Below are positions 10,638 through 36,388 of a stretch of 40,619 nt of DNA, piece after piece. The notes under the pieces are model-generated. The model saw nothing but the letters and a program-made list of their open reading frames with translations, searched no databases and was not told the origin of the DNA. The position numbers were made by a program, and so were the translations under genes. Position 1 is the first letter of the stretch, and each line of letters begins with the position of its first letter. The DNA comes from Bacteroidota bacterium (GTDB taxonomy: Bacteria > Bacteroidota > Bacteroidia > Chitinophagales > Saprospiraceae), in NCBI GenBank assembly GCA_963169325.1, contig CAUJEY010000060.1:1-40619 (forward strand), given 5' to 3'.

Positions 10638-10672
10638 GAAACTCATCACTCATCACTCATAGTTCATCACTC
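10638..10672 (+). repeat. Array of five heptanucleotide units before the DUF983 gene
   Basis: Five consecutive seven-base units: GAAACTC, ATCACTC twice, ATAGTTC, ATCACTC. The pattern is NNNACTC with one variant. The array ends nine bases before the ATG at 10682. No inverted partner is present here, unlike the arrays at 25614 and 29031. Confidence 0.8.
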
Positions 10673-10681
10673 CTATTATAT

Positions 10682-11101
10682 ATGGCATTATTTACAAAAG
10701 GCTCTAAACTGTACAGTGTTTTCGCGTTGAAGTGTCCGCGGTGCCATGAAGGCGAGATGTTTGAAACCGGGAGTTGGTCGTTTGTCAAACCATTCGACAT
10801 GCTCCATACCTGCCCCAAATGCCAACTCAACTACTTTCCCGAGCCGGGTTATTACTACGGCGCTATGTTCATTTCCTATATTTGGACGGCGTGGTTTTGT
10901 TTGTTTTTTGTGGGCCTTTTTCACTGGATTCTCGACTGGAGCCAATTGGCCTCATTCAGTTTTTTGATTGCATTTCTGGCCATTAATTTTGTTTACATTT
11001 TTCGGGTTTCCCGGCTGATGTGGATCAATCTGAATGTGAAATACGATCCAAAGGCCATTGAAAAAGCGCAACAAAAGGGAGCCGCACAACAGAATCGCTA
11101 A
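10682..11101 (+). CDS. DUF983 membrane protein
   Basis: A 139-residue protein of the DUF983 family, function unknown. It has an N-terminal zinc-ribbon-like pair of Cys motifs (CPRCHEGEMF near residue 18 and CPKCQLNYFPEPGYYYGAMF near residue 40), then two membrane helices (about 62-85 and 90-112). In this family the Cys pairs probably bind a metal at the cytoplasmic face. The start at 10682 follows the heptad array. The next gene (SQR) starts 83 bases downstream. Confidence 0.88.
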   Translation: MALFTKGSKLYSVFALKCPRCHEGEMFETGSWSFVKPFDMLHTCPKCQLNYFPEPGYYYGAMFISYIWTAWFCLFFVGLFHWILDWSQLASFSFLIAFLAINFVYIFRVSRLMWINLNVKYDPKAIEKAQQKGAAQQNR

Positions 11102-11184
11102 TTAGTGCAACAACGGCGTTGAGTCGTACTAAAATATTCCGGAGCATACCGGCGATCTTTGAGGCACAACAAAACAACTTTGTA

Positions 11185-12393
11185 ATGAAACAACACCATC
11201 AAATTCTGATCGTCGGCGGCGGAAATGCGGGTATTTCACTGGCTGCCCAGCTTTTGCGCAAAAATTCAAAAATGGACATCGCCATCGTTGACGCCGCAGA
11301 AAAGCACTATTATCAACCCGCCTGGACGCTTGTTGCCGGCGGGGTGTTCGATATCAACGACACCGAACGCACCGAAGCCGAAGTAATGCCTGAAAATGTT
11401 ACCTGGATTAAGGAGGCGGCAGCCTCGTTTGAGCCGGAACAAAACACCCTCGTTACAGCGGCTGGCAACCGGTACACCTATGATTATCTCGTGGTATGCC
11501 CGGGTATCCAGTTGGACTGGAAAAAGATAAAAGGCCTGGATGGCAACGTGGGGAAAAACGGTATCACCTCCAATTACCTCTTCCAGAGCGCGCCGTACAC
11601 TTATGAGTTATTAAAAAACCTGAAAAAGGGTAAAGCCCTTTTTACCAACCCGAACACACCGATTAAATGTGGCGGCGCGCCGCAAAAAATCCTTTACCTG
11701 GCATCCGACTATTGGCGCAAACAAGGTGTATTGAGCGATATTGGCGTGCATTTTTACTCGGGCGGCGGCGTTATTTTCGGGATTCCCAAATATGCCGCTA
11801 CGCTGAACAAAGTCATTGACCGCTATGGTATCAAAACGCATTTTTTGCACAACCTGGTAGAGGTTAAACCCGACAGCAAAGAAGCGATTTTTGATGTTTA
11901 CAAGGATGGTAAAGTAGTGGAACAAGTCACCTCCAACTACGATATGCTTCACGTGACGCCCCCTATGAGCGCCCCCGACTTTGTCAAAAATAGTCCGCTG
12001 GCTGTTCCGGACAATCCTTTTGGCTGGGTGGATGTGGATAAGTTTACGTTGCAGCACAATCGCTACGCAAACATCTATTCCATCGGCGACGCTTCCAGCA
12101 CGCCGAATGCCAAAACAGGCGCTGCGGTGCGCAAACAGGTACCTGTGTTGGTAGAACAACTGCTAAGTCAGATTAGTACCGGCAAACCGGCGCTCGCCAA
12201 GTATACCGGTTACGGCTCCTGCCCGCTGATTACCGGTTACGGCAAGTTGGTGCTTGCTGAATTTGACTATGATAACAACCCGATGGAAACCTTTCCTTTC
12301 GACCAATCCAAAGAACGCTGGTCGATGTACCAACTGAAAAGACACGTTTTGCCGTGGTTGTATTGGAATAAAATACTACACGGTACCGCGTAA
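11185..12393 (+). CDS. sqr: Sulfide:quinone oxidoreductase, type II (eukaryote-like)
   Basis: A 402-residue FAD enzyme that oxidises sulfide to persulfide or sulfane sulfur and passes electrons to the quinone pool at the inner membrane. The start at 11185 puts the FAD motif LIVGGGNAGISLA at residues about 7-19; the upstream in-frame start at 11119 only adds a non-conserved tail. The two redox cysteines are present: C162 in NTPIKCGGAPQKILYL and C346 in YGSCPLITGYGKLVLAEFDY. From memory, these blocks, and MLHVTPPMS and ETFPFDQSKERWSMY, align closely with human SQOR, which marks the type II group. An AraC-type regulator follows, separated by a hairpin. Confidence 0.9.
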   Translation: MKQHHQILIVGGGNAGISLAAQLLRKNSKMDIAIVDAAEKHYYQPAWTLVAGGVFDINDTERTEAEVMPENVTWIKEAAASFEPEQNTLVTAAGNRYTYDYLVVCPGIQLDWKKIKGLDGNVGKNGITSNYLFQSAPYTYELLKNLKKGKALFTNPNTPIKCGGAPQKILYLASDYWRKQGVLSDIGVHFYSGGGVIFGIPKYAATLNKVIDRYGIKTHFLHNLVEVKPDSKEAIFDVYKDGKVVEQVTSNYDMLHVTPPMSAPDFVKNSPLAVPDNPFGWVDVDKFTLQHNRYANIYSIGDASSTPNAKTGAAVRKQVPVLVEQLLSQISTGKPALAKYTGYGSCPLITGYGKLVLAEFDYDNNPMETFPFDQSKERWSMYQLKRHVLPWLYWNKILHGTA

Positions 12394-12418
12394 CCGGCAT
12401 AACTTGCAGATTCTGACA

Positions 12419-12477
12419 GGGTAGGGTGTTCAAATGTCCAGAGGCATAGTGCTTCCGGACCTTTGAATACCCTACCC
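12419..12477 (+). terminator. Long hairpin terminator after SQR
   Basis: Sixteen-base arms (12419-12434 and 12462-12477), GGGTAGGGTGTTCAAA against TTTGAATACCCTACCC with one G/A difference that becomes a G-U pair in one RNA strand. Inside, GTCC (12436-12439) pairs with GGAC (12457-12460). A T-rich run follows. Confidence 0.8.
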
Positions 12478-12494
12478 ACTTTTTGTGTTTTACT

Positions 12495-13409
12495 ATGGCA
12501 AAGAAAATTCCAACATACAGTATTTGTAATCTGCTCGGCGCTGATCAATGTGTCACCGAATTTCTGGTTACCAGGATCAGTGATTTTGTAAAGGCCAACC
12601 CGGATATTCAATTCCCGCACCGGCACGCTTTTTATCAGATCGTGTTGTTTGTTGAGGGGGGAGGGACGCACTCCATTGATTTCCAACAGTTTCAGGTGAA
12701 ACCCCATCAAATGTATGCGATGGGGCCGGGCCAAATCCACGGCTGGGAATTCGAGCCGGGCACCGAAGGGTACATCATTAATTTCAACGAGAGTTTTTTT
12801 ACGGCGATTTGCCATAATCCGAATTTTGTACAGGAATTTCCTTTGTTCAATTCGGTAAGTTCGAGCCCTGCCATTTTGCTGGAAACGGAGTGTTGCGATG
12901 AAGCGCATGCACTGATGGAGAAAATGTTGCGCGAATTTCAGGCCGACAATGCCTTTAAGCAGGAGATACTGCGGGGCATGTTGTTGCAGCTGATGGTCCT
13001 GTTGTCGCGGCAACTGCCCCTGGAAACCGTAACCGGCATATCGAGGCACCAGCGAGTTGTTTTGCGCAACTTCGAACGGCTCATCGAAACACATTACCGG
13101 GATAAACGCCTGCCACGCGACTATGCCGAAATGTTGTACATCACCCCCAATCACCTGAACGCATTGGTCAATTCAGTCATTGGAAAACCCGCCGGCGAAC
13201 TCATCCGCGACCGGGTGGTGCTCGAAGCCAAACGTCTGCTGGTCAACTCGGATATGACCATTTCCCAGATCGCCGATCTGTTGAATTTTGAAGATAACGC
13301 CTATTTCACCCGGTTCTTTAAAAAATATACCGCCATGTCGCCCGAGGTATTCCGACAGGAGTATGTGAAAAATTCCGCGGTAGCGGAGGTGGGTATAATT
13401 ACCAGTTGA
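12495..13409 (+). CDS. AraC-family transcriptional regulator
   Basis: A 304-residue regulator. The N-terminal half is a cupin-like sensing domain (FPHRHAFYQIVLFVEGGGTHSIDF, then GPGQIHGWEF); the C-terminal third carries two helix-turn-helix motifs (YAEMLYITPNHLNALVNSV, then ISQIADLLNFEDNAYFTRFF), the AraC/XylS signature. The ATG at 12495 is preferred to a TTG four codons upstream. The ligand is unknown. Its neighbours are SQR upstream and an acyltransferase downstream, each separated by a hairpin, so regulation of SQR is possible but only inferred from position. Confidence 0.92.
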   Translation: MAKKIPTYSICNLLGADQCVTEFLVTRISDFVKANPDIQFPHRHAFYQIVLFVEGGGTHSIDFQQFQVKPHQMYAMGPGQIHGWEFEPGTEGYIINFNESFFTAICHNPNFVQEFPLFNSVSSSPAILLETECCDEAHALMEKMLREFQADNAFKQEILRGMLLQLMVLLSRQLPLETVTGISRHQRVVLRNFERLIETHYRDKRLPRDYAEMLYITPNHLNALVNSVIGKPAGELIRDRVVLEAKRLLVNSDMTISQIADLLNFEDNAYFTRFFKKYTAMSPEVFRQEYVKNSAVAEVGIITS

Positions 13410-13416
13410 AAGGGCT

Positions 13417-13449
13417 ATTCACCGGTTGACTTGAAGTCGCCCGGTGAAT
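13417..13449 (+). terminator. Hairpin terminator after the AraC regulator
   Basis: Outer arms ATTCACCGG (13417-13425) and CCGGTGAAT (13441-13449); inside, GACTT and AAGTC (13428-13438) pair around one base. It starts eight bases after the stop codon and is followed by a T run. Confidence 0.8.
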
Positions 13450-13465
13450 TTGACGATTTTTGCGG

Positions 13466-13473
13466 TAAATTTG
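13466..13473 (+). promoter_or_regulatory. Candidate -7 element (TAAATTTG) for the acyltransferase
   Basis: Exact TAnnTTTG match directly downstream of the AraC terminator and 18 bases upstream of the ATG at 13492, giving a short leader of about 15 bases. Confidence 0.5.
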
Positions 13474-13491
13474 CGCCGCTAAAACAAGTAC

Positions 13492-14220
13492 ATGCGGATA
13501 TTCCGGAATCTTTGGGCCATTTATGCAATGGTTTTATTTCTCGCCCTCATGGCGATTACTATGCCCATATTTCTCCTGAATATGGCCTTTTTGCCGGAAG
13601 AGAAGTCCCTCAGGCGAAATATTACGTTCCTGCACCATGTTTTTACACCCACCTTTTTATCGTTGGTGGGTATCCGGGTGAAAATTGTGGGTCGGGAAAA
13701 ACTAGACGCTACCCGGTCGTATGTCATTATCGGCAACCACAATTCAGCCCTCGACTTTATCGTGAATGCTGCCGCTTTTCCGGGCGTATTCCGTTTTTTA
13801 GCCAAACAGGAATTACACAAAGTGCCGGTTTTTGGATGGGTGGTAAAAAAAATGTGCCTGTCGGTCGATCGCCGGAGCGCCATGAGCCGCGCCCGCAGTG
13901 TGGTGGAACTGAAACAACAACTGGCAGCCGGCTGGAGTATTTTTATTTACCCGGAAGGTGGACGCAACCGGACAGGCGAACCCCTGGCGCCCTTTTACGA
14001 TGGCGCTTTCCGGATCGCCATTCAAACCAAAGCGCCCATTGCCATTCAGACCATCGTAAACATCAAAGATATCGCATCTACTGCCCGTTCAATCGATTTG
14101 AAACCGGGCACCGTTCGGATTATTTGGGAAGAACCGATCGAAACCTCGGGCATTCGTACGGAAGATATACCGGAATTAAAAGACAGGGTCCGAAATATTA
14201 TGCTGGCCCATTTGCAATAA
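13492..14220 (+). CDS. Lysophospholipid acyltransferase (PlsC family)
   Basis: A 242-residue membrane-associated acyltransferase, probably 1-acyl-glycerol-3-phosphate acyltransferase of phosphatidic acid synthesis. Motif I is NHNSALDF with H83 and D88 (HX4D), the catalytic pair; motif III is PEGGRNRTGEPLAPFYDGAF near residue 162. One N-terminal membrane helix is at about 8-30. Normal length for the family. Cystathionine beta-synthase follows after 22 bases, so the two are probably one transcript. Related families acylate ornithine or other lipids, so the exact substrate is open. Confidence 0.88.
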   Translation: MRIFRNLWAIYAMVLFLALMAITMPIFLLNMAFLPEEKSLRRNITFLHHVFTPTFLSLVGIRVKIVGREKLDATRSYVIIGNHNSALDFIVNAAAFPGVFRFLAKQELHKVPVFGWVVKKMCLSVDRRSAMSRARSVVELKQQLAAGWSIFIYPEGGRNRTGEPLAPFYDGAFRIAIQTKAPIAIQTIVNIKDIASTARSIDLKPGTVRIIWEEPIETSGIRTEDIPELKDRVRNIMLAHLQ

Positions 14221-14242
14221 AAACAACTCAAATAAACGATTC

Positions 14243-15601
14243 ATGCAGTATAAACAAAACATCCTCGAAACCATCGGCAATACGCCTTTAGTAAAACTCA
14301 ATCAGGTGGCTGACGATATTCCGGCCCTGGTGCTGGCCAAAGTGGAGACTTTCAACCCAGGCCATTCCACCAAAGACCGTATGGCAGTAAAAATGATCAA
14401 CGATGCGGAGGCGCGCGGCGATCTGAAGCCCGGTGGCACCATTATCGAGTGTACCTCCGGGAATACCGGCATGGGCCTGGCGCTGGTAGCCTGTGTGCGT
14501 GGCTACCGTAGTATTTTTACCACCACGGACAAGCAAAGCAAGGAAAAAGTGGATATTCTGAAGGCTTTGGGCGCCGAAGTGATCGTATGCCCAACCAATG
14601 TGGAGCCGGAAGACCCTCGTTCTTATTACTCCGTCGCCCGTCGCCTGAGCGAAGAAATACCCAACTCATTTTGGTGCAACCAATATGATAATTTGTCGAA
14701 CCGTCAGGCGCATTATGAGTCGACCGGGCCGGAAATATGGGAACAAACGGATGGTAAAATAACCCATCTCGTGGTGGGAGTGGGCACCGGCGGCACCATC
14801 TCCGGCGTGGCGCGTTTCTTGAAAGAAAAAAATCCGAAAATCCAGATTTGGGGCGCCGATACCTACGGCTCCGTTTTTAAAAAATACCACGAAACCGGCG
14901 TTTTCGATCCGAAAGAAATTTATCCGTATATCACCGAGGGCATTGGAGAAGATATTCTTCCTGCCAATGTCGACTTCTCCCTGATCGATCACTTCGAAAA
15001 AGTAGGGGACAAAGAGGCTGCATTGTGGGCGCGCCGGCTTGCCCGGAAAGAGGGTTTACTCCTGGGCTATTCTGCGGGCAGCGCTATGGGCGCGCTTTGG
15101 CAATTGCGTGGAAAACTCAAAAAAGACGACGTGGTGGTCGTCATTTTCCACGATCATGGGAGCCGCTATGTCGGCAAAATCTATAACGACGACTGGATGC
15201 GACAACGCGGATTTCTGGAAGAAGAACTGAAAGTCAGCGACATCATTTCCCGGAAAAAAGACCGTCGGTTTATCGCCGTTCAAATGACCGATACGGTGCG
15301 AAGCGCATTCAATCTGATGAAATCGCACGATATCAGCCAGCTACCCGTGATGGATGGCGAAAACATCGCCGGCTCCATTACCGAACGGCAGGTGTTGCAT
15401 ATCCTGCTGGAAAACCCCATGCATAATGCTGAAAAACTGCTGAGCGAAGTGATGGGCGCTTCATTCCCCATCGTACAGGAAGATATGCCGATTAGCCAGT
15501 TGAACCGTTATATCGACAAAAATAGCCAGGCAGTTATTGCGAAAGACCGCTCCGGTGGCATGCATATCGTGACGCAATACGATTTAATACAAGCCATTTA
15601 A
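14243..15601 (+). CDS. Cystathionine beta-synthase with C-terminal CBS domains
   Basis: A 452-residue PLP enzyme of the cysteine-synthase/CBS fold that condenses serine (or another hydroxyl-amino-acid derivative) with homocysteine, and can release hydrogen sulfide. The PLP lysine is K44 in NPGHSTKDRMA; the substrate loop TSGNTGMG is at about 71-78; the PLP-phosphate loop GVGTGGTISG is near residue 175. Residues about 335-452 form a CBS-domain pair. This two-part architecture is that of eukaryotic-type CBS and many Bacteroidota homologues. It is close to SQR, which oxidises sulfide, so a sulfur link is plausible. A very long palindrome follows the stop codon. Confidence 0.93.
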   Translation: MQYKQNILETIGNTPLVKLNQVADDIPALVLAKVETFNPGHSTKDRMAVKMINDAEARGDLKPGGTIIECTSGNTGMGLALVACVRGYRSIFTTTDKQSKEKVDILKALGAEVIVCPTNVEPEDPRSYYSVARRLSEEIPNSFWCNQYDNLSNRQAHYESTGPEIWEQTDGKITHLVVGVGTGGTISGVARFLKEKNPKIQIWGADTYGSVFKKYHETGVFDPKEIYPYITEGIGEDILPANVDFSLIDHFEKVGDKEAALWARRLARKEGLLLGYSAGSAMGALWQLRGKLKKDDVVVVIFHDHGSRYVGKIYNDDWMRQRGFLEEELKVSDIISRKKDRRFIAVQMTDTVRSAFNLMKSHDISQLPVMDGENIAGSITERQVLHILLENPMHNAEKLLSEVMGASFPIVQEDMPISQLNRYIDKNSQAVIAKDRSGGMHIVTQYDLIQAI

Positions 15602-15608
15602 TTATAAG

Positions 15609-15689
15609 GTAAGTGCCTATTTAAAAGGGGGTGTCAAAAGAATTTTTTAAAAAAATTCTTTTGACACCCCCTTTTAAATAGGCACTTAC
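15609..15689. terminator. 81-base near-complete palindrome between convergent genes
   Basis: Two perfectly complementary 40-base arms (15609-15648 and 15650-15689) around a single A at 15649. It fills most of the 104-base gap between the CBS gene (stop 15601) and the amidohydrolase (stop 15706). Position suggests a two-way terminator or transcript-end stabiliser; the arms are several times longer than needed for that. Confidence 0.9.
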
Positions 15690-15705
15690 AAGAAAAAACC
15701 GTGAA

Positions 15706-16950: not shown

Positions 16951-16988
16951 GGGTATTTGATGTGGATGGAAAAATGACTTAATGGCGG

Positions 16989-16996
16989 CAAAAATA
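16989..16996 (-). promoter_or_regulatory. Candidate -7 element (TATTTTTG) for the amidohydrolase
   Basis: Exact TAnnTTTG match on the minus strand, 38 bases upstream of the ATG at 16950. Confidence 0.45.
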
Positions 16997-17047
16997 CTTC
17001 CAATGGCCGCATTCCAGGGCAAATTAACAAACCGTTGTACTTGCGGA

Positions 17048-19051: not shown

Positions 19052-19120
19052 ACAGATTCTGGTAAAAGGATTTTAAATGCTATGAAGTAGTCGAAGTGTG
19101 CCTTCCCGTAAAAATTTGTA

Positions 19121-19193: not shown

Positions 19194-19203
19194 CCCCTCG
19201 AAA

Positions 19204-25608: not shown

Positions 25609-25613
25609 TTGCA

Positions 25614-25684
25614 GTTTTGAGTTTTGGGTTTTGAGTTATCTTACCCGGCATAACTCAAAACTCAACACTCAACACTCAAAACTT
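25614..25684. repeat. Inverted heptanucleotide array between miaE and the reductase-like gene
   Basis: Left arm: units GTTTTGA, GTTTTGG, GTTTTGA and a partial unit (25614-25639). A ten-base spacer ending CCCGGC (25640-25649) follows. The right arm has exactly five units: ATAACTC, AAAACTC, AACACTC twice, AAAACTT (25650-25684). The reverse complement of the left arm is the same kind of unit. The right arm ends three bases before the ATG at 25688. Confidence 0.85.
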
Positions 25685-25687: not shown

Positions 25688-26443
25688 ATGTCCTGGTATC
25701 AATATCAATGCTTGACTTATGCCTGGATGGCAGTCGGTTTTTTTACTTTTATTTACCTGTTAAAAGTAAAAGCACCTTTTGGCCGGCACACCCGGCCCGG
25801 TTGGGGGCCGTTGGTGGATAACCGTTTAGGTTGGGCCATTATGGAAGGCACTGTGTTGGTGGCAATTTTTGCCGTAATGGCAGTTGGGCCAAATACGCTA
25901 AACATGCCGGCCAGGATAATGATCGGCTTGTTTGTGGCGCATTACGCCCACCGCAGCCTGCTTTTTCCCTGGTTTTTGCGTACTTCAGGAAAAAAGATGC
26001 CCATGGCGATTGTGTTATCGGCCATGGGCTTCAATGTGATGAACGGATTTCTATTCGGGTATTTTTTCAGCCAGTTCGCCGATTACCCGGAGAATTGGCT
26101 CATGGACGGACGGTTTTTATCCGGGTTAGCCCTGTTTATCTCAGGAGCCGCGCTGAATATCCATTCCGATTACGCCCTGATTCGTTTGCGAAAACCCGGT
26201 GAAACGGGTTACCGGATTCCGGAAGGCGGATTTTTTAACTGGATAAGTTGCCCGAATCATTTCGGCGAAATACTGGAATGGATCGGCTTTGCCGTATTTA
26301 CCTGGAGTTTGCCTGGCACGGCTTTTGCGTTTTGGACCTTCGCTAACCTGGCGCCACGCGCACTGGCACATCATCGCTGGTATAGGGAGATGTTTCCAGA
26401 ATATCCACGACACCGCAAGGCCCTGATCCCGGGTATATGGTAA
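25688..26443 (+). CDS. Steroid 5-alpha-reductase-like membrane protein
   Basis: A 251-residue integral membrane protein with about six helices, similar to 3-oxo-5-alpha-steroid 4-dehydrogenase/DUF1295 proteins. The family C-terminal signature is visible: NIHSDYALIRLRKPGETGYRIPEGGFF near residue 160, ISCPNHFGEILEWIGF, and HHRWYREMFPEYPRHRKALIPGIW at the end. It probably reduces or methylates a lipid-like substrate in the membrane using NADPH; the substrate is unknown. The start is set at 25688 because the upstream in-frame extension from 25631 is a translation of the heptad array (HSKLNTQHSKL). The next gene on the opposite strand ends one base away. Confidence 0.85.
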   Translation: MSWYQYQCLTYAWMAVGFFTFIYLLKVKAPFGRHTRPGWGPLVDNRLGWAIMEGTVLVAIFAVMAVGPNTLNMPARIMIGLFVAHYAHRSLLFPWFLRTSGKKMPMAIVLSAMGFNVMNGFLFGYFFSQFADYPENWLMDGRFLSGLALFISGAALNIHSDYALIRLRKPGETGYRIPEGGFFNWISCPNHFGEILEWIGFAVFTWSLPGTAFAFWTFANLAPRALAHHRWYREMFPEYPRHRKALIPGIW

Positions 26444-27019: not shown

Positions 27020-28198
27020 ATGAAAGAAGTATTTATCGTCTCCGCTGTACGCACGCCATTGGGCAGTTTCGGGGGCACATTAGCCGGGGTGAGCGCCACA
27101 CAACTCGGCGCAGCAGCTATTAAAGGCGCGCTGGCCGATGCCGGTGTACAGCCCGACTGGGTAACGGAAGTATTGATGGGCAACGTGGTGAGCGCCAATC
27201 TCGGTCAGGCGCCGGCACGGCAGGCAGCGGTCTTTGCGGGCCTTCCAGCTAACGTACCCTGTACCACGATTAATAAAGTATGCGCCTCCGGGATGAAAGC
27301 CATTACGCTCGGCGCGCAAAGTATTATGCTGGGTATCAACGATATTGTAGTGGCAGGCGGCATGGAGAACATGTCGCAAATCCCGTATTACATCCCCAAT
27401 GCCCGCTGGGGCTACAAATACGGCAACGCTGAAATCGTAGACGGCCTGGCCAAAGACGGCCTTACCGACGTGTACAATCAAAAAGCAATGGGCGTGTGCG
27501 CCGATGCGACGGCTGCGAAGTACAATATCAGCCGGGAAACGCAGGATGCTTTTAGCATTGAATCCTACAAACGCGCCGCGGCAGCCACGGAAGGTGGATT
27601 GTTTAAAGCCGAAATTGTACCGGTCGAAATCCCGCAGCGCAAGGGCGATCCGGTGCTGATAGCCGAAGACGAAGAGTTTAAAAAAGTAAATTTCGACAAA
27701 ATACCCGGCCTGCGCCCGGCTTTCAGCCCGGATGGTACCGTGACGGCCGCCAATGCCAGCACCATCAACGACGGCGCTTCTGCCCTCATTTTAGCCAGTG
27801 CAGAAGCGGTAAAAAAATATGGACTGAAGCCCATAGCCAAAATCCGCGGTTTTGCCGATGCCGAGCAAGAGCCAGAGTGGTTCACGACCACCCCCACTGT
27901 GGCAGCGCCTAAAGCCATGAAAATGGCCGGTGTGCAACAGTCGGATATTGATTTCTATGAAGTCAATGAGGCGTTTGCCGTGGTAACCCTGGCATTTGAG
28001 CAGGTGTTGAATGTGGCCCACGACCGTACCAATGTATTCGGTGGAGCTGTCGCGCTCGGGCACCCGCTGGGCGCTTCCGGTGCGCGTATCGTCACCACAC
28101 TGAACAATGTGCTCCACCAGAAAAACGGCTCGCTGGGCCTGGCCGCCATTTGCAACGGCGGCGGCGGCGCAACGGCTATTGTCATAGAACGGGTTTAG
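27020..28198 (+). CDS. Acetyl-CoA C-acetyltransferase (thiolase)
   Basis: A 392-residue thiolase joining two acetyl-CoA to acetoacetyl-CoA, or the reverse. The nucleophile is C88 (INKVCASGMKA); the other active-site motifs are GGMENMSQIPYY (about 115), NEAFAVVTLAFEQV (about 315), GHPLGASGARIV (about 345) and the C-terminal CNGGGGATA with the acid-base Cys. Length is standard. An MBL-fold hydrolase follows after five bases, so they form an operon. The biosynthetic or degradative role cannot be told apart from sequence. Confidence 0.95.
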   Translation: MKEVFIVSAVRTPLGSFGGTLAGVSATQLGAAAIKGALADAGVQPDWVTEVLMGNVVSANLGQAPARQAAVFAGLPANVPCTTINKVCASGMKAITLGAQSIMLGINDIVVAGGMENMSQIPYYIPNARWGYKYGNAEIVDGLAKDGLTDVYNQKAMGVCADATAAKYNISRETQDAFSIESYKRAAAATEGGLFKAEIVPVEIPQRKGDPVLIAEDEEFKKVNFDKIPGLRPAFSPDGTVTAANASTINDGASALILASAEAVKKYGLKPIAKIRGFADAEQEPEWFTTTPTVAAPKAMKMAGVQQSDIDFYEVNEAFAVVTLAFEQVLNVAHDRTNVFGGAVALGHPLGASGARIVTTLNNVLHQKNGSLGLAAICNGGGGATAIVIERV

Positions 28199-28203
28199 GA
28201 AAT

Positions 28204-29046
28204 ATGCTTCACGTCAAAGTCATTCACGCGGGTAATTTTAAACTGGACGGCGGCGCCATGTTCGGCGTTGTGCCTAAGCGGATGTGGGAAAAATTGAATC
28301 CACCGGACGCGCAAAATATGTGTACCTGGGCCATGCGGGCTTTGCTGGTGGAGACCGGCAACCGGAAAATCCTGATCGATACCGGGATGGGAAACAAACA
28401 GGACGATAAATTCCGCTCCCATTTCGAACCGCACGGCCCGGAGAACTTATTCGATTCCCTGGCTGCAGCCGGGGTTCGCCGGGAAGACATTACCGATGTA
28501 TTCCTGACGCATCTCCATTTCGATCACTGCGGTGGCGCTTTGTGGCGCAACGAAACGACGGGGGAGGTGGAACTCTCCTTCCCCAATGCTGTTTACTGGT
28601 CGAACGAACGCCATTACAAGTGGGCCAACAACCCGAATGAACGAGAAAAGGCCTCTTTTTTGCCGGACAATATTTTGCCGCTTCAGGAAAAAGAGCGGTT
28701 GCGCTTCATCGATGTCCGCCAAAACATCGATTTTTTGCCCGGATTCCGGGTGCGATTTTATTACGGCCATACAGAGGCTTTGATGGCGCCGCTTATTCAG
28801 TCACAACACGGCCCCATTTTTTACTGCGCCGATACCATCCCGTCGCAGTGGCATATCGGACTCCCTTACATCATGGCCTATGACGTGCGGCCACTGCTCT
28901 CCATGAAAGAAAAAGCGCAAATCCTGCGCGATGCAGTACGGCACAAGCACATTCTGATGTTTGAACACGATCCGCACACAGCCGCCGGAACAGTTATCCG
29001 GGATGCCAAGGGTAGGTTTGTTTTAGAACGGAGTTATGAGTTATGA
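28204..29046 (+). CDS. MBL-fold metallo-hydrolase
   Basis: A 280-residue cytoplasmic metallo-beta-lactamase-fold protein. Metal ligands: H103, H105, D107 and H108 in THLHFDHCGG, a His in FYYGHTEA near residue 195 and a late His (FEHDPHT near 260). It starts with the typical strand then ILIDTGMG. The start at 28204 follows the thiolase stop by five bases; a longer in-frame start at 28150 overlaps thiolase and encodes a poly-Arg tail, so it is rejected. The substrate is unknown; lactonases and glyoxalase-like enzymes share this pattern. The last codons (SYEL, stop) are encoded inside a heptad array. Confidence 0.9.
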   Translation: MLHVKVIHAGNFKLDGGAMFGVVPKRMWEKLNPPDAQNMCTWAMRALLVETGNRKILIDTGMGNKQDDKFRSHFEPHGPENLFDSLAAAGVRREDITDVFLTHLHFDHCGGALWRNETTGEVELSFPNAVYWSNERHYKWANNPNEREKASFLPDNILPLQEKERLRFIDVRQNIDFLPGFRVRFYYGHTEALMAPLIQSQHGPIFYCADTIPSQWHIGLPYIMAYDVRPLLSMKEKAQILRDAVRHKHILMFEHDPHTAAGTVIRDAKGRFVLERSYEL

Positions 29047-29117
29047 GCGATGAGTTATGAGTTATGAGCGATCAAACTCGGCATAACTCATCGCTCATAA
29101 CTCATAACTCATCGCTC
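29031..29117. repeat. Inverted heptanucleotide array over two convergent gene ends
   Basis: Left: six units in the order GAGTTAT twice, GAGCGAT, then the same again (29031-29072). Spacer: ten bases ending CTCGGC (29073-29082). Right: exactly five units, ATAACTC and ATCGCTC mixed (29083-29117). A perfect 28-base inverted repeat (29045-29072 with 29090-29117) lies inside. It covers the stop codons of both the MBL hydrolase and the convergent lipoprotein gene. Confidence 0.9.
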
Positions 29118-29486: not shown

Positions 29487-29691
29487 TATACGGTTTGATT
29501 TTGGCGCAGCAAAAATCGGTAAAGCCCTAATGAAATTCAAATATATGCCTGAATAGACGCGCGCTTTGTTTCCATTTTAAATCTTTGCCCATATTTCCGC
29601 ACGGCGACCGGTACACTAATCCGGCGAAAGGCCGCGTTGTAATTATTCGCATAAGACAGACCTTTTTAATAAACTTAGAACACTTCAAACC

Positions 29692-30558
29692 ATGATGTCA
29701 CACCGACTTCTCCTGACCGTTTTTTTAACCAGTATATTTTTGACGTCCTGCGTTTCTCCTAAGGTTCACCGCGCCGAGGTATCCATGCGGGAACAGTGCG
29801 AAGCCCGCGAAAAGGTGCTGGTTCAGGAACAATTGGAGCGCCGCAAAGAATCGGCCAACCTGACCAAGCAGATCGGCGACCTGAACCGGTTAATAGGTAA
29901 CCAGGAAGCAGAGTTGAAAGACTTGCAGACGGAACTGTCGTCGCGAACGCAGCAATTAGGCGAGTCGTCCAGTAAGTTATTAACCGAAAAATTAGACCTG
30001 CAAAAGGAACTGACGAGCAAAAACGCCCTGATTGGCAAACAGGAGGCCACCCTGCAAGCCGTAGCCTCCGCCCAAAAAAGCCGGCAGAAAATCCTGGAGG
30101 AATTAAAAAACACCCTTTTAAAAGGATTTCCCGGCAGTACGGGCGCGAAGGTGGAAGTCAGCGATCCGGCAGTATTATTGACCTTACCAGACAACGGCCT
30201 TTTTGAAACAAACGGCATATCCATCAGCCCGGCAGGTAAAACCTTGCTGACGCCCCTGGCCAATCTATTAGCCAACCGTCCGGAACTACGTACGGAAATC
30301 CTGGCCTACACAGACAATACGTTACCCAAGGGCACAAAAAACCTGAACGATACCTGGGATTGGAGCCTCACCCGCACAACCAACCTGGTGCGTTTGCTGA
30401 TCCGTGAATTCAATATCAATGCGAACCAACTGACCCCGGTGGCAAAGGGGGAGTTTTATCCGGTCACTTCAAACGAAACGGCAGAGGGCCGGCAACGCAA
30501 CCGGCGTACCGTAGTGGCCATATATCCCAATTTACCAAAAGTGCCGCCTGCGGAATGA
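29692..30558 (+). CDS. OmpA-family lipoprotein with a coiled coil
   Basis: A 288-residue lipoprotein: signal peptide with lipobox LTSC (MMSHRLLLTVFLTSIFLTSC), then a long coiled coil (about 25-145, rich in E, K, Q and L), then an OmpA-like peptidoglycan-binding domain (about 160-280, with NGLFETNGISISPAGKTLL, the ILAYTDNTLPKG region, and the closing GEFYPVTSNETAEGRQRNRRTVVAIYP). It probably tethers the outer membrane to the cell wall. The stop codon is the first three bases of the decamer array. Confidence 0.88.
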   Translation: MMSHRLLLTVFLTSIFLTSCVSPKVHRAEVSMREQCEAREKVLVQEQLERRKESANLTKQIGDLNRLIGNQEAELKDLQTELSSRTQQLGESSSKLLTEKLDLQKELTSKNALIGKQEATLQAVASAQKSRQKILEELKNTLLKGFPGSTGAKVEVSDPAVLLTLPDNGLFETNGISISPAGKTLLTPLANLLANRPELRTEILAYTDNTLPKGTKNLNDTWDWSLTRTTNLVRLLIREFNINANQLTPVAKGEFYPVTSNETAEGRQRNRRTVVAIYPNLPKVPPAE

Positions 30559-30605
30559 TCGTCATTGGTCGTCATTGATCGTCATTGATCGTCATTGACC
30601 ACATT
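30556..30605. repeat. Array of five decanucleotide units between convergent genes
   Basis: Five ten-base units: TGATCGTCAT, TGGTCGTCAT, TGATCGTCAT twice, and a diverged TGACCACATT. The array begins with the TGA stop of the OmpA gene and ends five bases before the TolC-like stop on the other strand. Confidence 0.85.
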
Positions 30606-30610
30606 CCACA

Positions 30611-32026
30611 TTAATTCGCTAACTGCCCTGCCGCCCATTGCAGCCCCGCTTCTATTTTTTGATACTCGCTGAGCAATTTCAGGTATTTCACCCGGGCATC
30701 AAGCCACCGCTGCTCCCGGGTATTAATGAGAAATACGGAACTTTCTCCAAAGCGGAATTTTTCGGTCTCGGCATCTAAAAGGGTGCGATAATTTTCGGTT
30801 ACGCTGCGAAACAGATCGATTTGCGCCAACAGGTTATCGCGTTCGTTCCAGTACTGGCGGACTTTATTTTCTATTTCCGTGTTTTTCTGTTTGAAAAGCA
30901 GATCAGTCTGTTCAATTTTTATTTGCGTCACCTGCCAATCGCCGCGCGCCTTGCGGTTTGGGAGCGGGTAACTGAATTCGACGCCCCATTTGATATCGTT
31001 GGCCAACACGCCGAATCCTTCGTCTCCCGCAGTGGGAAAAAACTGCCAACCGTTGCCCAAAAGACTGTAATTCAGGTCGAGAACAGGCTTTCGTTTTTCC
31101 CTTTTCCATTGGCGCTCCACATCCAGCAGCGTTTGTTTTACCCGGTACAGCCGTGTTTCCGGGTGTTGCGTCCGGGCCAGTTGAAGCAGGGCTGCCGTAT
31201 CGGGTGGGGTGGGGGACAAAGCGCCCGCAGTCAGCAGGGAAGGCGGTGCGGGCAGTTGGGCCGGCTGTGCAGGCGTGCCCTGATCTGTCCAAAGAAAATT
31301 GCACAATAACAATGCGGCATTTTGCCAGTCAATGCGGGCAAAATTAGTGTCGAGCCGGCGGTTCTGTACCTGGATATACGTTTCCAGGGTATCAATGGCC
31401 GGTTTATCGCCTTGCAGCAGGCTTTCCCGAAGGGCTTCGTGCCGGATTTGCGCCTGGCGTAGCGCTTCGTCGTAGACCTCCAGCATATTTGCGGCAACCA
31501 CCCAGTTCCAATAAGCTTTGGCGGCTTCTAAAAGCAAGTCGTTCAGGATCAGACTGCGCTCTGCATCGCCCTGCTCCAGGCCGATTCTACTTTGCCGAAG
31601 CGTAAAACGGCGCTCATCGAGCATCAAACCCTGGCCGAGCGACCAGGAAATCCCGGCCGCCACCTGACCGGCGTCGGGCAAGGTGGATTCCGGATTCAGG
31701 AATGTTCCCGATGCCTGGTTATAATTGCCCTTCAGTTCCAGGCCCAAACCCAGCGGCACCTTTACCCCGGCCTCGGCATATTGATAATAAGATTTGTCTT
31801 TAAAGTTTTTTCCATGGAGATCAGCATACGCCTTCGGGTCAAAACCGCCTTTGGCGCGTAACAGCCCGGCACGGGCCTGATCCCGGAATAAATCGGCCTG
31901 CCGGGCTACCGGGTGATCGTTCAACACCCGGGCACGAAAATCCGCCCATTCCAATGGCCCCGTTTGTTGGGCATGGGAGGTACAGATAAACAGGCAAATC
32001 AGCGGGCAAATCAGTAGTTTATACAT
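30611..32026 (-). CDS. TolC-like outer-membrane efflux protein
   Basis: A 471-residue outer-membrane channel. The start at 32026 gives the signal peptide MYKLLICPLICLFICTSHAQQ; a Met 25 codons upstream overlaps the adaptor gene. The rest has the alternating long helices and beta strands of TolC (QADLFRDQARAGLLRAKGGFDPKAYADL at the start, YKQKNTEIENKVRQYWNERDNLLAQIDL helices late). It forms the outer part of an export channel with the HlyD-like and ABC proteins encoded just upstream (four-base gap), so this is the last gene of a three-gene operon. Confidence 0.88.
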   Translation of the reverse strand: MYKLLICPLICLFICTSHAQQTGPLEWADFRARVLNDHPVARQADLFRDQARAGLLRAKGGFDPKAYADLHGKNFKDKSYYQYAEAGVKVPLGLGLELKGNYNQASGTFLNPESTLPDAGQVAAGISWSLGQGLMLDERRFTLRQSRIGLEQGDAERSLILNDLLLEAAKAYWNWVVAANMLEVYDEALRQAQIRHEALRESLLQGDKPAIDTLETYIQVQNRRLDTNFARIDWQNAALLLCNFLWTDQGTPAQPAQLPAPPSLLTAGALSPTPPDTAALLQLARTQHPETRLYRVKQTLLDVERQWKREKRKPVLDLNYSLLGNGWQFFPTAGDEGFGVLANDIKWGVEFSYPLPNRKARGDWQVTQIKIEQTDLLFKQKNTEIENKVRQYWNERDNLLAQIDLFRSVTENYRTLLDAETEKFRFGESSVFLINTREQRWLDARVKYLKLLSEYQKIEAGLQWAAGQLAN

Positions 32027-32030
32027 CTGG

Positions 32031-33419
32031 TTACTTAGCCTTTTTGACCGGCGCTTTGGGCGTAATCCCATCGTCTTTTTTGCCGGAATCTTCGTTTTCA
32101 TCCTGATAAAGATCGGGCGGGAAGCCGTTCAGCACCCGCCATAATTCGTACCACAGGGGCACATTATCGAGCAGGGCAATCCCTTTGGCGCCACCGCCCA
32201 CTTGCAATGCGGCCGGCCAGGGTTGTGCCGCAGGGTCTTTGGCCACGAGGATGCGGAATTTACCGTTGGCGCTGATATTCCGGTCGATAGCGACGACTTT
32301 TCCAGGGAAAGTACCCAATGATACGCCCGGCCAGCCGCTAAAAAAGAACGCCGGCCAACCATCAAAAATAAACCGAACCTCGCGGCCGACACTGATCAGG
32401 GGCAGGTCCATCGGCCGGAGAAACATTTCCACCGCCAGTTCATAATTGGCCGGCAGGATACTGACCAAGGGATCACCCTCCTTTATAATTTCACCGATAC
32501 CCGGTTTAATGGCTTTTATGATATAGCCATCCTGCGGCGCCAGCACGTAATAGAAACTTTGCCGCCGGGTATAGTTTTCCTGGTCGATCTGGAGTTTGCT
32601 CACCGATGCTTGTGCGTCGTATTTTTCCGACAGGGTACTAAATTTGTCCCCGCGGGCTTTGGCAATTTTGTTGGCGTACTCGTTCCGGGTCAACAGCAGC
32701 TCTGTGCGGTAAATTTCCAGGTCGTTTTGGCTGGAGGCCAGTTTGTTTTCCATACCAACCAGTTTGGCCTCGCTCTCCTGAAGTTTGCCCTTTTTTTCTT
32801 CCAGTTCCGTCAACGATTTCAGCCCCTTGTCATATAAATTTTTCACCCCTTCAAATTGCCTGCGGGCGATTTGGATGTCAACTTTAGCCTGTTCCAGCGC
32901 CGCGATATCCGACCCGATTTTCAGTTCGGCTTGCCGTATTTTATTGGCGAGTTGCGATTCCTTGTTGGGCAATTCCCGCTCGAGTGCTGCTATTTGAGCA
33001 TCTAGAGCGCCGGCCTTACCGGAGTATGACTCAATGGCGCCTTCTTTGGCCGTCACCTGGCTGCCCACCCGCTCTACAATTGCCGGGTCGAAATATTCGG
33101 ATTTTACTTCGGACAGGAACACAATGGTATCGCCTTTGCGAACCGCCTGACCTTCCGTGACGTACCAGTGCTCAATACGGCCGGAAATGGTGGCATGTAT
33201 GGTTTGCGGCCGTTGCTCGGGTCGCAAAGTGGTCACTTTGCCGTCGCCGCGGATATTTTGCGTCCAGGGAAGCAGCAGGAATATGATGAATACAACCAGC
33301 ATCACCAAAAACAGGTTTCGGGCGGAGATATGCCAGGAGGCCAGCTTGGTCCGGGCAGGTGATTTTAAGTCCTTTAACTCCGCTTCGCAATGAACAATAT
33401 TGTCGGTTATGTTTAGCAT
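32031..33419 (-). CDS. HlyD-family periplasmic adaptor
   Basis: A 462-residue membrane-fusion protein. One N-terminal membrane helix (about 32-50), a lipoyl-like half motif (ATISGRIEHWYVTEGQAVRKGDTI near residue 75), a long coiled-coil hairpin (about 115-275), the second lipoyl half (SFYYVLAPQDGYIIKAIKPGIGEII) and a barrel domain with a Lys-rich C-terminal tail. Bridges the ABC protein in the inner membrane and the TolC channel. It begins two bases after the ABC stop and ends four bases before the TolC start, a clear operon. Confidence 0.92.
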   Translation of the reverse strand: MLNITDNIVHCEAELKDLKSPARTKLASWHISARNLFLVMLVVFIIFLLLPWTQNIRGDGKVTTLRPEQRPQTIHATISGRIEHWYVTEGQAVRKGDTIVFLSEVKSEYFDPAIVERVGSQVTAKEGAIESYSGKAGALDAQIAALERELPNKESQLANKIRQAELKIGSDIAALEQAKVDIQIARRQFEGVKNLYDKGLKSLTELEEKKGKLQESEAKLVGMENKLASSQNDLEIYRTELLLTRNEYANKIAKARGDKFSTLSEKYDAQASVSKLQIDQENYTRRQSFYYVLAPQDGYIIKAIKPGIGEIIKEGDPLVSILPANYELAVEMFLRPMDLPLISVGREVRFIFDGWPAFFFSGWPGVSLGTFPGKVVAIDRNISANGKFRILVAKDPAAQPWPAALQVGGGAKGIALLDNVPLWYELWRVLNGFPPDLYQDENEDSGKKDDGITPKAPVKKAK

Positions 33420-33421
33420 AG

Positions 33422-35155
33422 TTATTCGTTTTCGCGGAAAATACGTTCGTAATGTTCCGTTTTTTGTACGGCTTTGAATGTTCCGTCAAAGATGAACTGT
33501 CCATCCTTCAACACCACCACGCGATCGCACAGCGAGGCCAGCAGCGGGTCTTCGGTGATTGCCACAAAGGTCCAGGCATGGCTTTGGTCGGTCAGCATCT
33601 GACTGATCCGCAGGCGGTCGCGGAAGTTGAGGTTACCGAGGGGTTCCTCCATGACCAACAGGTTGGGGTCTGCAACCACGGCGCGGGCGACCAGCAATTT
33701 GGCAATGATGCTGCGCGGCATGTTTTTACCACCGGGTTGCAGTTTGGTATCGATCCCTTTCTGACAATCTTGAATAAATTCACTCAAACCGATGGATTCA
33801 CATACTTCCAGCACCCGTTGAAGGGAAATATTGCTACGCCCCAGGGTAATATTTTCCCGGATAGTACCCATAAACACGTCTTCCTGGGAGGAGTAATCGC
33901 CGATATGTTCGCGCAAACTGCGCAAATCGAGATTTCGTTTAGACAATCCGTTAAACAACAGTGAGCCGGTAAAGTCGCGCCGGGCCACCGACAGAATTTG
34001 CATCAAAGTGCTTTTTCCGGAACCATTGTAACCGGCAATAGCCAGGCGCTCGCCGGCCCGGATCGTTAGTGTCAGGTCTTTCAGTACCGGCGATTCCGCA
34101 TCGTCGTATTGGTATGAAAGATTCCGAAATTCGACTTCCAACGGTTTTTTGTCGCTGAATTCTTCCACCCGGATTCCGCCTTCGCGTTCAATAGGGAGGT
34201 CGGTAACCTGGCCGATTTTTTCCGTTGCTGTAAGTACGTCATAGCCGGTTTCGTGAAGCATGATCAGTTTTTCGACCGAATCAATGATGAACAACACCAG
34301 AATTTCTGCGGCCACAAACTGACCGATGTTGAGTTGATTTTCCATAACCAGCAAACTCCCCAGAATCAGAAATCCGCCCAATACCAGGGCCCTGAAGAGG
34401 ACACTGCCGATCATTTGCGACAACAGGATACGCCAGTGTTTGGCCCGGGCATCCAGGTAATTAATGGTTAGTTCATCGGTTTGTTCCAGCGGAAACCGGT
34501 TTTCGCCAGCCAATTTAAACGTGGACGCGACCCGCCCCACCTCTTCGAGCCAGTAGGCGATTTTATACTTGTATTTGGATTCTTTCAAACTGGTTTCCAG
34601 GCCGAGGGGCGCCGTCCACCGGAAAAACAGCCCCAACACACCCAGTAACAACAGGGAAGACAGCACAAATGTGGAATGATAAAAAGAGAGCAGCAGCAAA
34701 CTGAGTAGAATTTGTAATACCGCCGTGCTGCCGTCGATGAGTAATTTAGGCAAACCTTTTTGAATCGTTTGCGTATCGAAAAACCGGTTGATCAGCTCGG
34801 GCAAATGTTCCCGGCGCATCAATTCCAGGTTGAAACGGGGAATACGAACCGCAAATTCGATGGCGGCATCGGTAAAAATCCGGCGTTGAAGGTATTCCAT
34901 TACGGATAATTGCATGAGGCGAAGAAAACCGGTGAGCAGCGCCCCAACTACGATAAATGCGACTAAAACGGCCCAGGAAGCAGATATGCCGCCGCCGGCG
35001 ATCAACCCGATGATCGCCTGTACGCCCAACGGAAGAGACAGATTGATTAGACCTGCCACCACCGCATACAACAAAATGTACCGAATTTCGTGTCGGTATT
35101 TGCCTAACAAGCGGAGGAGGCGCCGGGCGGGAGTCAGTAAAACGGGATTTTCCAC
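33422..35155 (-). CDS. ABC transporter, fused membrane and ATPase domains (degenerate NBD)
   Basis: A 577-residue half-transporter, six membrane helices (about 25-320) then a nucleotide-binding domain. The start is GTG at 35155; no ATG is available. The Walker A motif is intact (GYNGSGKST, K381) and the Q-loop is visible (YSSQED). Other motifs are off consensus: the signature reads LQPGGKNMPRS rather than LSGGQ, Walker B ends MEEP rather than DEP, and the switch His is replaced (VAITEDP). ATP hydrolysis may be slow or need a partner. With HlyD and TolC downstream it resembles type I secretion or antimicrobial export; no precursor peptide was found nearby. Confidence 0.9.
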   Translation of the reverse strand: MENPVLLTPARRLLRLLGKYRHEIRYILLYAVVAGLINLSLPLGVQAIIGLIAGGGISASWAVLVAFIVVGALLTGFLRLMQLSVMEYLQRRIFTDAAIEFAVRIPRFNLELMRREHLPELINRFFDTQTIQKGLPKLLIDGSTAVLQILLSLLLLSFYHSTFVLSSLLLLGVLGLFFRWTAPLGLETSLKESKYKYKIAYWLEEVGRVASTFKLAGENRFPLEQTDELTINYLDARAKHWRILLSQMIGSVLFRALVLGGFLILGSLLVMENQLNIGQFVAAEILVLFIIDSVEKLIMLHETGYDVLTATEKIGQVTDLPIEREGGIRVEEFSDKKPLEVEFRNLSYQYDDAESPVLKDLTLTIRAGERLAIAGYNGSGKSTLMQILSVARRDFTGSLLFNGLSKRNLDLRSLREHIGDYSSQEDVFMGTIRENITLGRSNISLQRVLEVCESIGLSEFIQDCQKGIDTKLQPGGKNMPRSIIAKLLVARAVVADPNLLVMEEPLGNLNFRDRLRISQMLTDQSHAWTFVAITEDPLLASLCDRVVVLKDGQFIFDGTFKAVQKTEHYERIFRENE

Positions 35156-35174
35156 GGGTAGTAGATATTTACAC

Positions 35175-35182
35175 CAAAGTTA
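35175..35182 (-). promoter_or_regulatory. -7 element (TAACTTTG) for the export operon
   Basis: Exact TAnnTTTG match on the minus strand, 19 bases upstream of the GTG start of the ABC gene. Leader about 16 bases. Confidence 0.5.
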
Positions 35183-35294
35183 TAATGACAAATCAGATTA
35201 AACGAACGTTCCTAAAACGACAAGATCAGTGCTTTGTTTAAAATCAATATGCGCAATACTGCAGTCTTTGTTACCCGGGCACCCGCAATCTCCG

Positions 35295-35302
35295 TAATTT
35301 TG
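35295..35302 (+). promoter_or_regulatory. -7 element (TAATTTTG) for the acyl-CoA reductase
   Basis: Exact TAnnTTTG match with a TTTG at 35267-35270, 24 bases upstream. It lies 17 bases before the TTG start codon at 35320 and supports that start. Confidence 0.5.
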
Positions 35303-35319
35303 CCCAAAATTGAGACGAC

Positions 35320-36351
35320 TTGATATACACCGAACGACTTGACCTGCTGGACGAACTGGGCCGTTACCTCTCGGCAGCGCCGGATGACGAACTCCTGCAA
35401 ATTTTCCGCAAAAGCAATGTTGAAAACCCGTGGTTTACTGTAGAAAATATACGGTATGCATTAGATTCTATTGCCGGCGCTTTTCTGGACCGGGACCGTT
35501 TGGAACACTGGGCGGCACAATATCCCATGAACAGCGCTTCCCATCCGGAAAAAACCATCGGTCTGGTGATGGCGGGAAACATCCCCTTAGTCGGTTTCCA
35601 CGACTGGCTTTGCGTGTTTGTGGCCGGGCACCGGGCCAAGGTGAAACTGTCCGACAAAGACAAATATTTGCTGCCGTTCCTGGTGAAAAAAATGGGCGAT
35701 TGGGCTTTTGAATCCTGGGAATACACCGAATTTTTGGACGAAACGGATCGATTGAAGGGCTTCGACGCCATCATTGCCACCGGGAGCAACAATACCGCCC
35801 GCTATTTCGAGCAGTATTTTGGAAAATACCCGCATATCATCCGCCGCAACCGCAACGGGGTAGCCGTGCTCCGTGGCACGGAAAACATAACTGATTTGTA
35901 CGGGCTGGGACGGGATATTTTCACCTATTTTGGGTTAGGGTGCCGCAACGTGAGCAAACTTTACGTGCCACGCGATTATGATTTTACACCCTTGCTGGAG
36001 GCCCTGCACGAATACCGGGAACTGGCGCACCACGACAAATATAAAAACAACTTCGATTACAACCTTACCCTGCTGCTGCTGAATCAAATACCCTACCACA
36101 ACAACGGCTGCCTGCTGCTTCGGGAAGAACCCGCTTTGCAAGCCCGGATAGCCTCGGTACACTATGAGTATTACAACAACGTCCAACACCTCCAAACCTT
36201 GCTGGAAACCCGGCGGGAAGAAATACAATGTATCGTGGGAAGCATCACGGTGCCGGGATTTACTATTCTACCCTTCGGAAAATCCCAGGAACCCGGCTTG
36301 TCCGATTACCCGGATGGTGTAGATGTCATGGACTTTTTAACCCGTTTATAG
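35320..36351 (+). CDS. LuxC-type acyl-CoA reductase
   Basis: A 343-residue member of the LuxC/acyl-CoA reductase family, which reduces fatty acyl-CoA or acyl-protein to the aldehyde. The catalytic Cys is C208 in YFGLGCRNVSKLYVP; upstream are TIGLVMAGNIPLVGFHD and IIATGSNNTARYFEQYF, which form the NADPH site. No luxA, luxB or luxD genes are nearby, so luminescence is not implied; Bacteroidota proteins of this group stand alone. The start is TTG because an in-frame stop lies three codons upstream. TrmD follows, after a heptad array. Confidence 0.9.
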   Translation: MIYTERLDLLDELGRYLSAAPDDELLQIFRKSNVENPWFTVENIRYALDSIAGAFLDRDRLEHWAAQYPMNSASHPEKTIGLVMAGNIPLVGFHDWLCVFVAGHRAKVKLSDKDKYLLPFLVKKMGDWAFESWEYTEFLDETDRLKGFDAIIATGSNNTARYFEQYFGKYPHIIRRNRNGVAVLRGTENITDLYGLGRDIFTYFGLGCRNVSKLYVPRDYDFTPLLEALHEYRELAHHDKYKNNFDYNLTLLLLNQIPYHNNGCLLLREEPALQARIASVHYEYYNNVQHLQTLLETRREEIQCIVGSITVPGFTILPFGKSQEPGLSDYPDGVDVMDFLTRL

Positions 36352-36353
36352 CC

Positions 36354-36388
36354 GGAACTTCAAACTTTGAACTCCAAACTTCAAACTA
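36354..36388 (+). repeat. Array of five heptanucleotide units before trmD
   Basis: Five units of the form NNAACTN (GGAACTT, CAAACTT, TGAACTC, CAAACTT, CAAACTA). It begins right after the acyl-CoA reductase stop and ends six bases before the trmD ATG. GCCGG lies at its start, similar to the CCGGC/TCGGC that precedes the right arms at 25650 and 29083. Confidence 0.8.

Follow-up and report, generated by a model that had tools for sequence, protein, structure and literature searches.

Seven-base arrays at gene boundaries of a Saprospiraceae genome, read as possible arms of small intergenic DNA hairpins

A contig of 40,619 nucleotides from a Saprospiraceae bacterium of the phylum Bacteroidota (CAUJEY010000060.1; this whole stretch is called the window here) carries short arrays of seven-base units at four of its gene boundaries, and the question is what these arrays are and whether they belong together. 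A reading of the sequence alone had proposed one family of elements, each made of exactly five units of the type NNNACTC or NNAACTN. Comparison with other stretches of the same genome (the source genome, an 8.07 Mb draft in 349 contigs) and with related genomes shows that the family is wider than first thought, the form of a hairpin being constant while the units change between loci and between species: the two arms of a pair are built of one unit, the compared sites are occupied in some lineages only, and the arms have changed together at most of the sites where this was followed. We therefore regard the arrays, tentatively and with a confidence set just short of an even chance, as stems or single arms of small non-coding DNA hairpins between genes, kept palindromic by fold-back copying and lengthened by seven-base slippage.

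The arrays exceed chance. Runs in the window were scored by their identity at lag 7 over 21 positions, with 30 first-order Markov resamplings as background: a threshold of 17/21 returned five runs in the window and none in any resampling; at 15/21 the five runs compared with a resampled mean of 0.2 (maximum 2), and at 18/21 just one window run passed, against none resampled. In 44 stretches not selected for arrays (581,481 bases) 23 period-7 arrays were present, and 20 resamplings gave none for periods 6 to 10. Other periods, counted without case-by-case inspection, yielded 0, 0 and 2 arrays at 4, 5 and 6 bases, and 8, 2, 5, 0, 5, 1, 15 and 5 at 8 to 15 bases, 14 being the double period; array counts exclude those with a strong period of 1-3.

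One line of evidence for the hairpin reading is the pairing of the arrays. The fetched stretches contain 269 of them, and an inverted partner lies within 300 bases (score of at least 16) for 177, against 17 of 269 when an array from another locus was used instead. A less biased set of 121 arrays, which leaves out the window and the stretches L031-L070 (fetched for AACTC matches) and keeps those chosen because they surround trmD or are syntenic with a stretch bearing an element, gave a partner for 81. The arms are also polar: G exceeds C in the 5′ arm of 94 of the 103 two-arm elements, with 3 ties (41 of 46, with 2 ties, in the less biased set), and, the element being an inverted repeat, this polarity is identical from either strand. 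The majority unit has a strand devoid of any G or of any C in 186 of the 269 arrays, a property of 26% of all heptamers. The provision of stop codons in three frames, considered as the purpose of the G-rich arm, gave no rule, being found in 62 of 103 left arms and 40 of 103 right arms.

A second line of evidence is the joint change of the arms between two species, G008 and G016, which share two blocks of about 96 kb in total at 79-95% identity. In several of their orthologous gaps both the core and the units differ, and each hairpin is still complementary to itself; in other gaps the arrays are nearly alike. Irregularities can be present on both sides, as for GAGTTATAAAGTTATGAG in G016, which is mirrored in the two arms, and likewise for the run GTTATCC-GTTATCG-GTTATTA-GTTATTA. 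At gaps having hairpins in both species, the arms of one element outscored arms swapped between species in 7 of 8 cases, three of the 11 hand-picked gaps being uncounted as one or both sides scored below 16. The same two genomes provide a separate observation: G008 has two long near-perfect palindromes (L272 1717-1946 and L278 8335-8539) whose arms follow other periods (AGGATT every nine bases; GTTTTTGTGTTTTGGG), and their G016 counterparts have an unrelated hairpin or none.

The window itself contains two such two-armed elements and two single arrays, made up of the following parts:

10640-10672, plus strand: single array of ACTCATC-type heptamers, 9 bases 5′ of the ATG (10682) of a DUF983 gene; no fold (folding z 1.6).
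25613-25639, plus strand: G-rich 5′ arm (units GAGTTTT/GAGTTAT) in a two-armed element, a few bases 3′ of the miaE stop codon.
25640-25649, plus strand: head or spacer CTTACCCGGC, between the arms of the 25613-25684 element.
25650-25684, plus strand: 3′ C-rich arm, 3 bases before the ATG at 25688.
29031-29072, plus strand: 5′ arm of six units (GAGTTAT GAGTTAT GAGCGAT, twice), in which the gene at 28150-29046 has its final codons and its TGA (29044-29046).
29073-29082, plus strand: head or spacer CAAACTCGGC, between the arms of the 29031-29116 element.
29083-29116, plus strand: 3′ arm, whose minus strand supplies the TGA (29111-29109) of the convergent gene 29540-29109.
36354-36387, plus strand: single array of AACTTCA/AACTCCA units within the 43-base gap before trmD (ATG 36395).

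Most of what had been described for the window was recovered: period-7 runs at all four loci (10640-10672, 25650-25684, 29083-29116 and 36354-36387), inverted arms at two of them (25613-25639 and 29031-29072), ten-base spacers that both end in CGGC and are identical at 7 of 10 positions, three runs placed 9, 3 and 7 bases before an ATG (the 10640, 25650 and 36354 arrays), and a fourth locus, 29031-29116, containing both convergent stop codons, one per arm. Nothing unusual appears among the neighbouring genes that Pfam matches (thioredoxin, DUF983, MiaE, Steroid_dh, a metallo-beta-lactamase fold and TrmD), and two neighbours have no match. Positions 30556-30598 hold a further tandem repeat, TGATCGTCAT, of period 10 (4.3 copies, 93% matches), which is not a heptamer.

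The two comparable sites of the window, 29031 and 36354, are empty in near relatives. The gap upstream of trmD measures 43 bases with its array in the source genome, and 9, 11, 3, 7 and 7 bases, array-free, in G017, G037, G002, G032 and G039, respectively, where the upstream gene is the same by eye; the script located the trmD start in 20 of 30 loci, 19 besides the source genome. At the 29031 site, the two fetched stretches having both neighbours (G017 and G002) have no array, and the upstream protein continues past the last shared serine by 9 (G017) and 5 (G002) residues more; in the source genome, this gene takes its final residues and its stop from the 5′ arm. Arrays follow miaE in 7 of 29 other loci (150 bases inspected), and five of these arrays clearly have two arms; G028 would be a doubtful eighth case, and none is seen at the rest. 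The units, mostly unlike that of the source genome, are GAGTGAT, GATGAAT, GTTATTN, GTCCTGA (two species), GTGARWC and a CAAGTTG-like one, and, since the gene downstream of miaE differs between the source genome and most others, the 25613 site offers no strict empty-site test.

In the reading that we favour, a typical element would consist of a short head shared within a species (here CNNRYYCGGC) between inverted heptamer arms, the 5′ one G-rich and the 3′ one C-rich. Units would multiply through seven-base slippage; a strand folding back during replication could have one arm copied from the other by template switching, the palindrome being rebuilt as the units change; and conversion or copying might carry heads and units from one dispersed copy to another. 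Insertions would be tolerated at gene ends, most of all where genes converge, and arms located there may take over stop codons and leaders. Besides the pairing and the joint change of the arms, the polarity, the shared heads, the sites without arrays in relatives and the different units found in one gap speak for this reading. Several points weigh against it. Among the eight scored sites, one (A152177) favours the swapped arms, and the 11 sites were picked by hand; at the score threshold applied, 92 of the 269 arrays are unpaired; no enzyme or step of the mechanism has been observed; and the reading does not account for a period of seven rather than another. A mirrored order of variant units is not a rule either: among 54 left arms, 24 exceed the permuted mean and 14 fall short of it (Wilcoxon p 0.15, the only test used, as per-arm p-values are invalid for arms with few possible orders).

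The loss of SbcCD was pursued as a cause and kept as a lead only, TIGR00619 having a match in 38 of 42 genomes, five over the cut-off and four of these strong, with relatedness uncontrolled. The strong SbcD matches belong only to G004, G013, G030 and G040, which have 1 array in 68,449 bases against 55 in 656,762 in the others, both being small samples.

The strongest rival to fold-back copying is transposition of the core. In the source genome, the head CNNRYYCGGC occurs in 7 of 22 two-arm elements versus 13 of 1100 shuffles, and one of the seven elements (L039) bears arms of the ATTCATC type. G008 and G016 together have a paired head, GGC-N14..17-GCC, in 19 of 63 elements versus 0 of 1260 shuffles. 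The form TTGGC-N15-GCCAA, counted genome-wide as places against a backward-read control, is frequent in G008 (75 against 9), G016 (69 against 5), G017 (37 against 7) and G025 (34 against 10), weaker in G018 (12 against 5) and G004 (27 against 19), and near the control in the source genome (20 against 19), G006 (16 against 13) and G030 (17 against 14). In the rival reading, head and inner stem would be a transposable hairpin resembling miniature inverted-repeat transposable elements (MITEs) or repetitive extragenic palindromic (REP) sequences, moved in trans, with heptamers growing at its ends after insertion. This agrees with the dispersed, species-specific head families, with core types GTACACC and TTGACC found at swapped sites in G008 and G016, with the G008 cores that have outer parts in common but different heptamers, and with sites filled in one species and empty in another. 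However, most of the stem is not conserved between copies, and the sole candidate family tested, Y1_Tnp (PF01797), which we take to include the REP-type transposases, is present in 34 of 42 genomes and tracks neither arrays nor heads: its matches number none in G017, which has 37 head matches, and seven in the array-poor G041. A tie to REP elements of a RAYT (Y1) transposase was not borne out by this co-occurrence, and transposition in general appears possible, though on the unlikely side.

The position of the elements relative to genes bears on a further explanation, a function of the hairpins in RNA. The mean overlap of the arrays with open reading frames (ORFs) is 0.28, versus 0.87 for random intervals (121 arrays; crude ORF calls). 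In the less biased set, arrays occupy 27 of 170 gaps between convergent genes, 19 of 432 between tandem genes and 5 of 142 between divergent genes (convergent versus tandem, p 9e-6), and within tandem gaps C-rich arrays are closer to the start in 11 of 17 cases and G-rich arrays closer to the stop in 8 of 10. Together with the unit shared by the arms, the 7 of 22 heads and the lack of arrays in resampled sequence, the low ORF overlap bears out the earlier proposal of one element family placed at gene boundaries. The hairpins could then be 3′-end or terminator structures of convergent transcripts, and the G-free arms before an ATG unstructured leaders or binding sites of translation regulators, as MacGregor proposed for TAACTGA repeats. 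The convergent enrichment and the placement of the arms within tandem gaps speak for such a function, and so does the strong predicted RNA fold of both two-armed window elements (−30.8 kcal/mol, z −7.3, for 25613-25684; −52.6 kcal/mol, z −11.2, for 29031-29116). Yet convergent gaps are also the most tolerant of insertions, the single arrays do not fold (z 1.6 at 10640 and −1.75 at 36354), and sites are empty in close relatives having the same genes.

Base pairing in the arms points in the same direction. In tandem-gap elements, 7 at edges and 3 inside ORFs being left out, 1007 of 1103 aligned arm positions are Watson-Crick pairs, and the mismatches comprise 23 G-U, 33 A-C and 40 others (p 0.23; small sample). 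Selection on RNA would favour G-U, while copying at the DNA level would not, so that the absence of a G-U excess is what is expected if the palindrome is kept at the DNA level; RNA selection was accordingly not retained, in a sample too small to decide. A role in RNA seems to us doubtful. The Rfam search of the window gave no match; extended to five further loci, it gave a single one, the Acido-Lenti-1 RNA (RF01687) at L053 2766-2809, with 37.8 bits against a cut-off of 37, adjoining a GAGAGGT array.

The number and the variety of the units depart from the initial description. Measured as length divided by 7, with a detection floor of 4 units, the 269 arrays span 4 to 31 units (36 at 4, 86 at 5, 67 at 6 and 80 longer). 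The claim of exactly five units fails already in the window, where the left arm at 29031 has six, and the source genome contains runs of more than 17; nor is a maintained count of five supported by this range, since five and six, although the commonest lengths, are close to the floor, with a long tail above. As to the units, NNNACTC or NNAACTN holds for the four window sites and not beyond them, as the same genome has arrays of ACCGTCC, ATTCATC, ACATTTT and other units, and the 269 arrays have 56 majority units, many unrelated, of which the ACTC unit is one. Overlapping matches to the pattern AACTCNNAACTCNNAACTC number 252 in the source genome, and the pattern is present in 19 of 42 genomes of the genus (0 to 266 matches), the backward-read control of these counts being unclean, as AACTCAA arrays match it too. 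Contigs C89 (L039 8305-8426) and C127 (L041 9643-9781) of the source genome, G000, end within a long AACTCAT array, and arrays therefore probably break this assembly. In G011, a species without AACTC arrays, L081 268-1065 holds an array with a conserved flank: inside 800 bases, CACCCGCACCACTTGGACATTGG occurs three times with ATTGGAY heptamers after it.

Plain independent slippage, with every array a separate simple repeat and the partner arms a by-product of composition and of few favoured units, would suit the unmirrored variant order and the finding that, in many bacteria, no long simple repeats are more frequent than those of seven bases (Mrazek 2007, as cited by MacGregor 2015, PMC4679880), but it is largely disfavoured by the partner scores alone (177 versus 17 of 269), as well as by the shared heads and the advantage of own over swapped arms, and we consider it very improbable.

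The distribution of the elements was followed in a collection of 84,980 species genomes and in a sample of 296 genomes of the phylum. The paired pattern GAGTTATGAGTTAT-N4..34-ATAACTCATAACTC has 88 matching stretches in the collection; among the matches listed (80 of the 88), 72 have Bacteroidota titles and 8 belong elsewhere, namely three to Cyanobacteria, two to Acidobacteriota and one each to Oscillospiraceae, Calditrichaeota and Patescibacteria. The matches outside Bacteroidota that are single contigs of metagenome-assembled genomes (MAGs) could result from misbinning; Argonema antarcticum is not labelled a MAG in its title. In the phylum sample, AACTCATAACTCATAACTCA is found in 16 of 296 genomes, the source genome included, scattered over families, against 6 of 296 for the control, which is clean for that unit. 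A more ambitious proposal would be a hairpin class persisting by fold-back copying, in which a small species-specific head sits on stems of almost any heptamer and the two sides are rewritten jointly; such hairpins would have spread through Bacteroidota, would occur with identical units in Cyanobacteria and further phyla, and would overwrite gene ends. We hold this proposal, as a whole, to be unlikely. The elements matter in any case, as they alter gene ends and can break assemblies. The cause of abundant seven-base repeats in bacteria is left open in the accessible parts of the literature (PMC4679880, PMC4692102), and the shared order of about 96 kb in G008 and G016, with one gap compared across the genus, provides ready sites to separate slippage, fold-back copying and transposition.

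Among known systems, which are compared here on the accessible portions of their descriptions, one of the closest is the P6b stem of the cyanobacterial tRNA-Leu(UAA) intron, whose heptamers are TDNGATT or NNTGAGT and have repeatedly passed from Class II to Class I (Kaasalainen 2015, PMC4476775; Nephroma paper, PMC3488679). These stems and the present elements are hairpins with two arms of degenerate heptamers, whole-unit variation and repeated change of unit class, and paired arms of this kind are what 177 of 269 arrays have here, against 17 of 269. In the less biased set, 32 of 121 arrays conform to NNTGAGT, the Class II unit (mean 2.8 and maximum 10 for letter-shuffled units); TDNGATT, the Class I unit, suits 1 of 269. 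Unlike a P6b stem, which lies inside one intron RNA, the present elements are dispersed between protein genes, with many unit classes and species-specific heads, and no Rfam match in the window places them in a tRNA-Leu group I intron.

The arrays also share with bacterial tandem heptamers an abundance beyond chance (23 in 581,481 bases versus 0 in 20 resamplings) and a mostly intergenic location (0.28 versus 0.87). In the heptamers of Calothrix, which presumably are those named STRR, inverted-arm architecture was not encountered in the accessible descriptions, three tandem heptamers being reported in one genome as cited by Rehm 2015 (PMC4692102). The same paper describes the GGGAATC heptamers of Xanthomonas, two genomes of which contain 70 and 75 inverted pairs; these repeats too are intergenic arrays, partly in inverted pairs and under-represented in gaps between divergent genes, and most of their sites are common to two species with varying length. 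They consist, however, of one G-quadruplex-forming unit, whereas the present elements use many units, most often lacking C or lacking G, and the unit at a given site varies from species to species. The TAACTGA arrays of Beggiatoaceae, Cyanobacteria and five Bacteroidetes (MacGregor 2015, PMC4679880) resemble the present ones in being intergenic and close before start codons, in the overlapping phyla and in the shorter, array-free gaps of relatives; unlike the hairpins, they are almost always direct repeats of one unit, with one inverted case. Their unit is in no window array and is the majority unit of 9 of 269.

A literature search with little subscription or bioRxiv coverage gave no recognised description of two-armed intergenic heptamer hairpins in Bacteroidota, and neither the use of many units by one genome nor the polarity, the species-specific heads or a change of unit at one site between species was found in the accessible accounts of the P6b, GGGAATC and TAACTGA repeats. 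The hairpins belong to a known kind, the heptamer repeats represented by P6b stems, Xanthomonas GGGAATC pairs and TAACTGA arrays, and their paired form with changing units looks like a little-studied variant of bacterial seven-base repeats.

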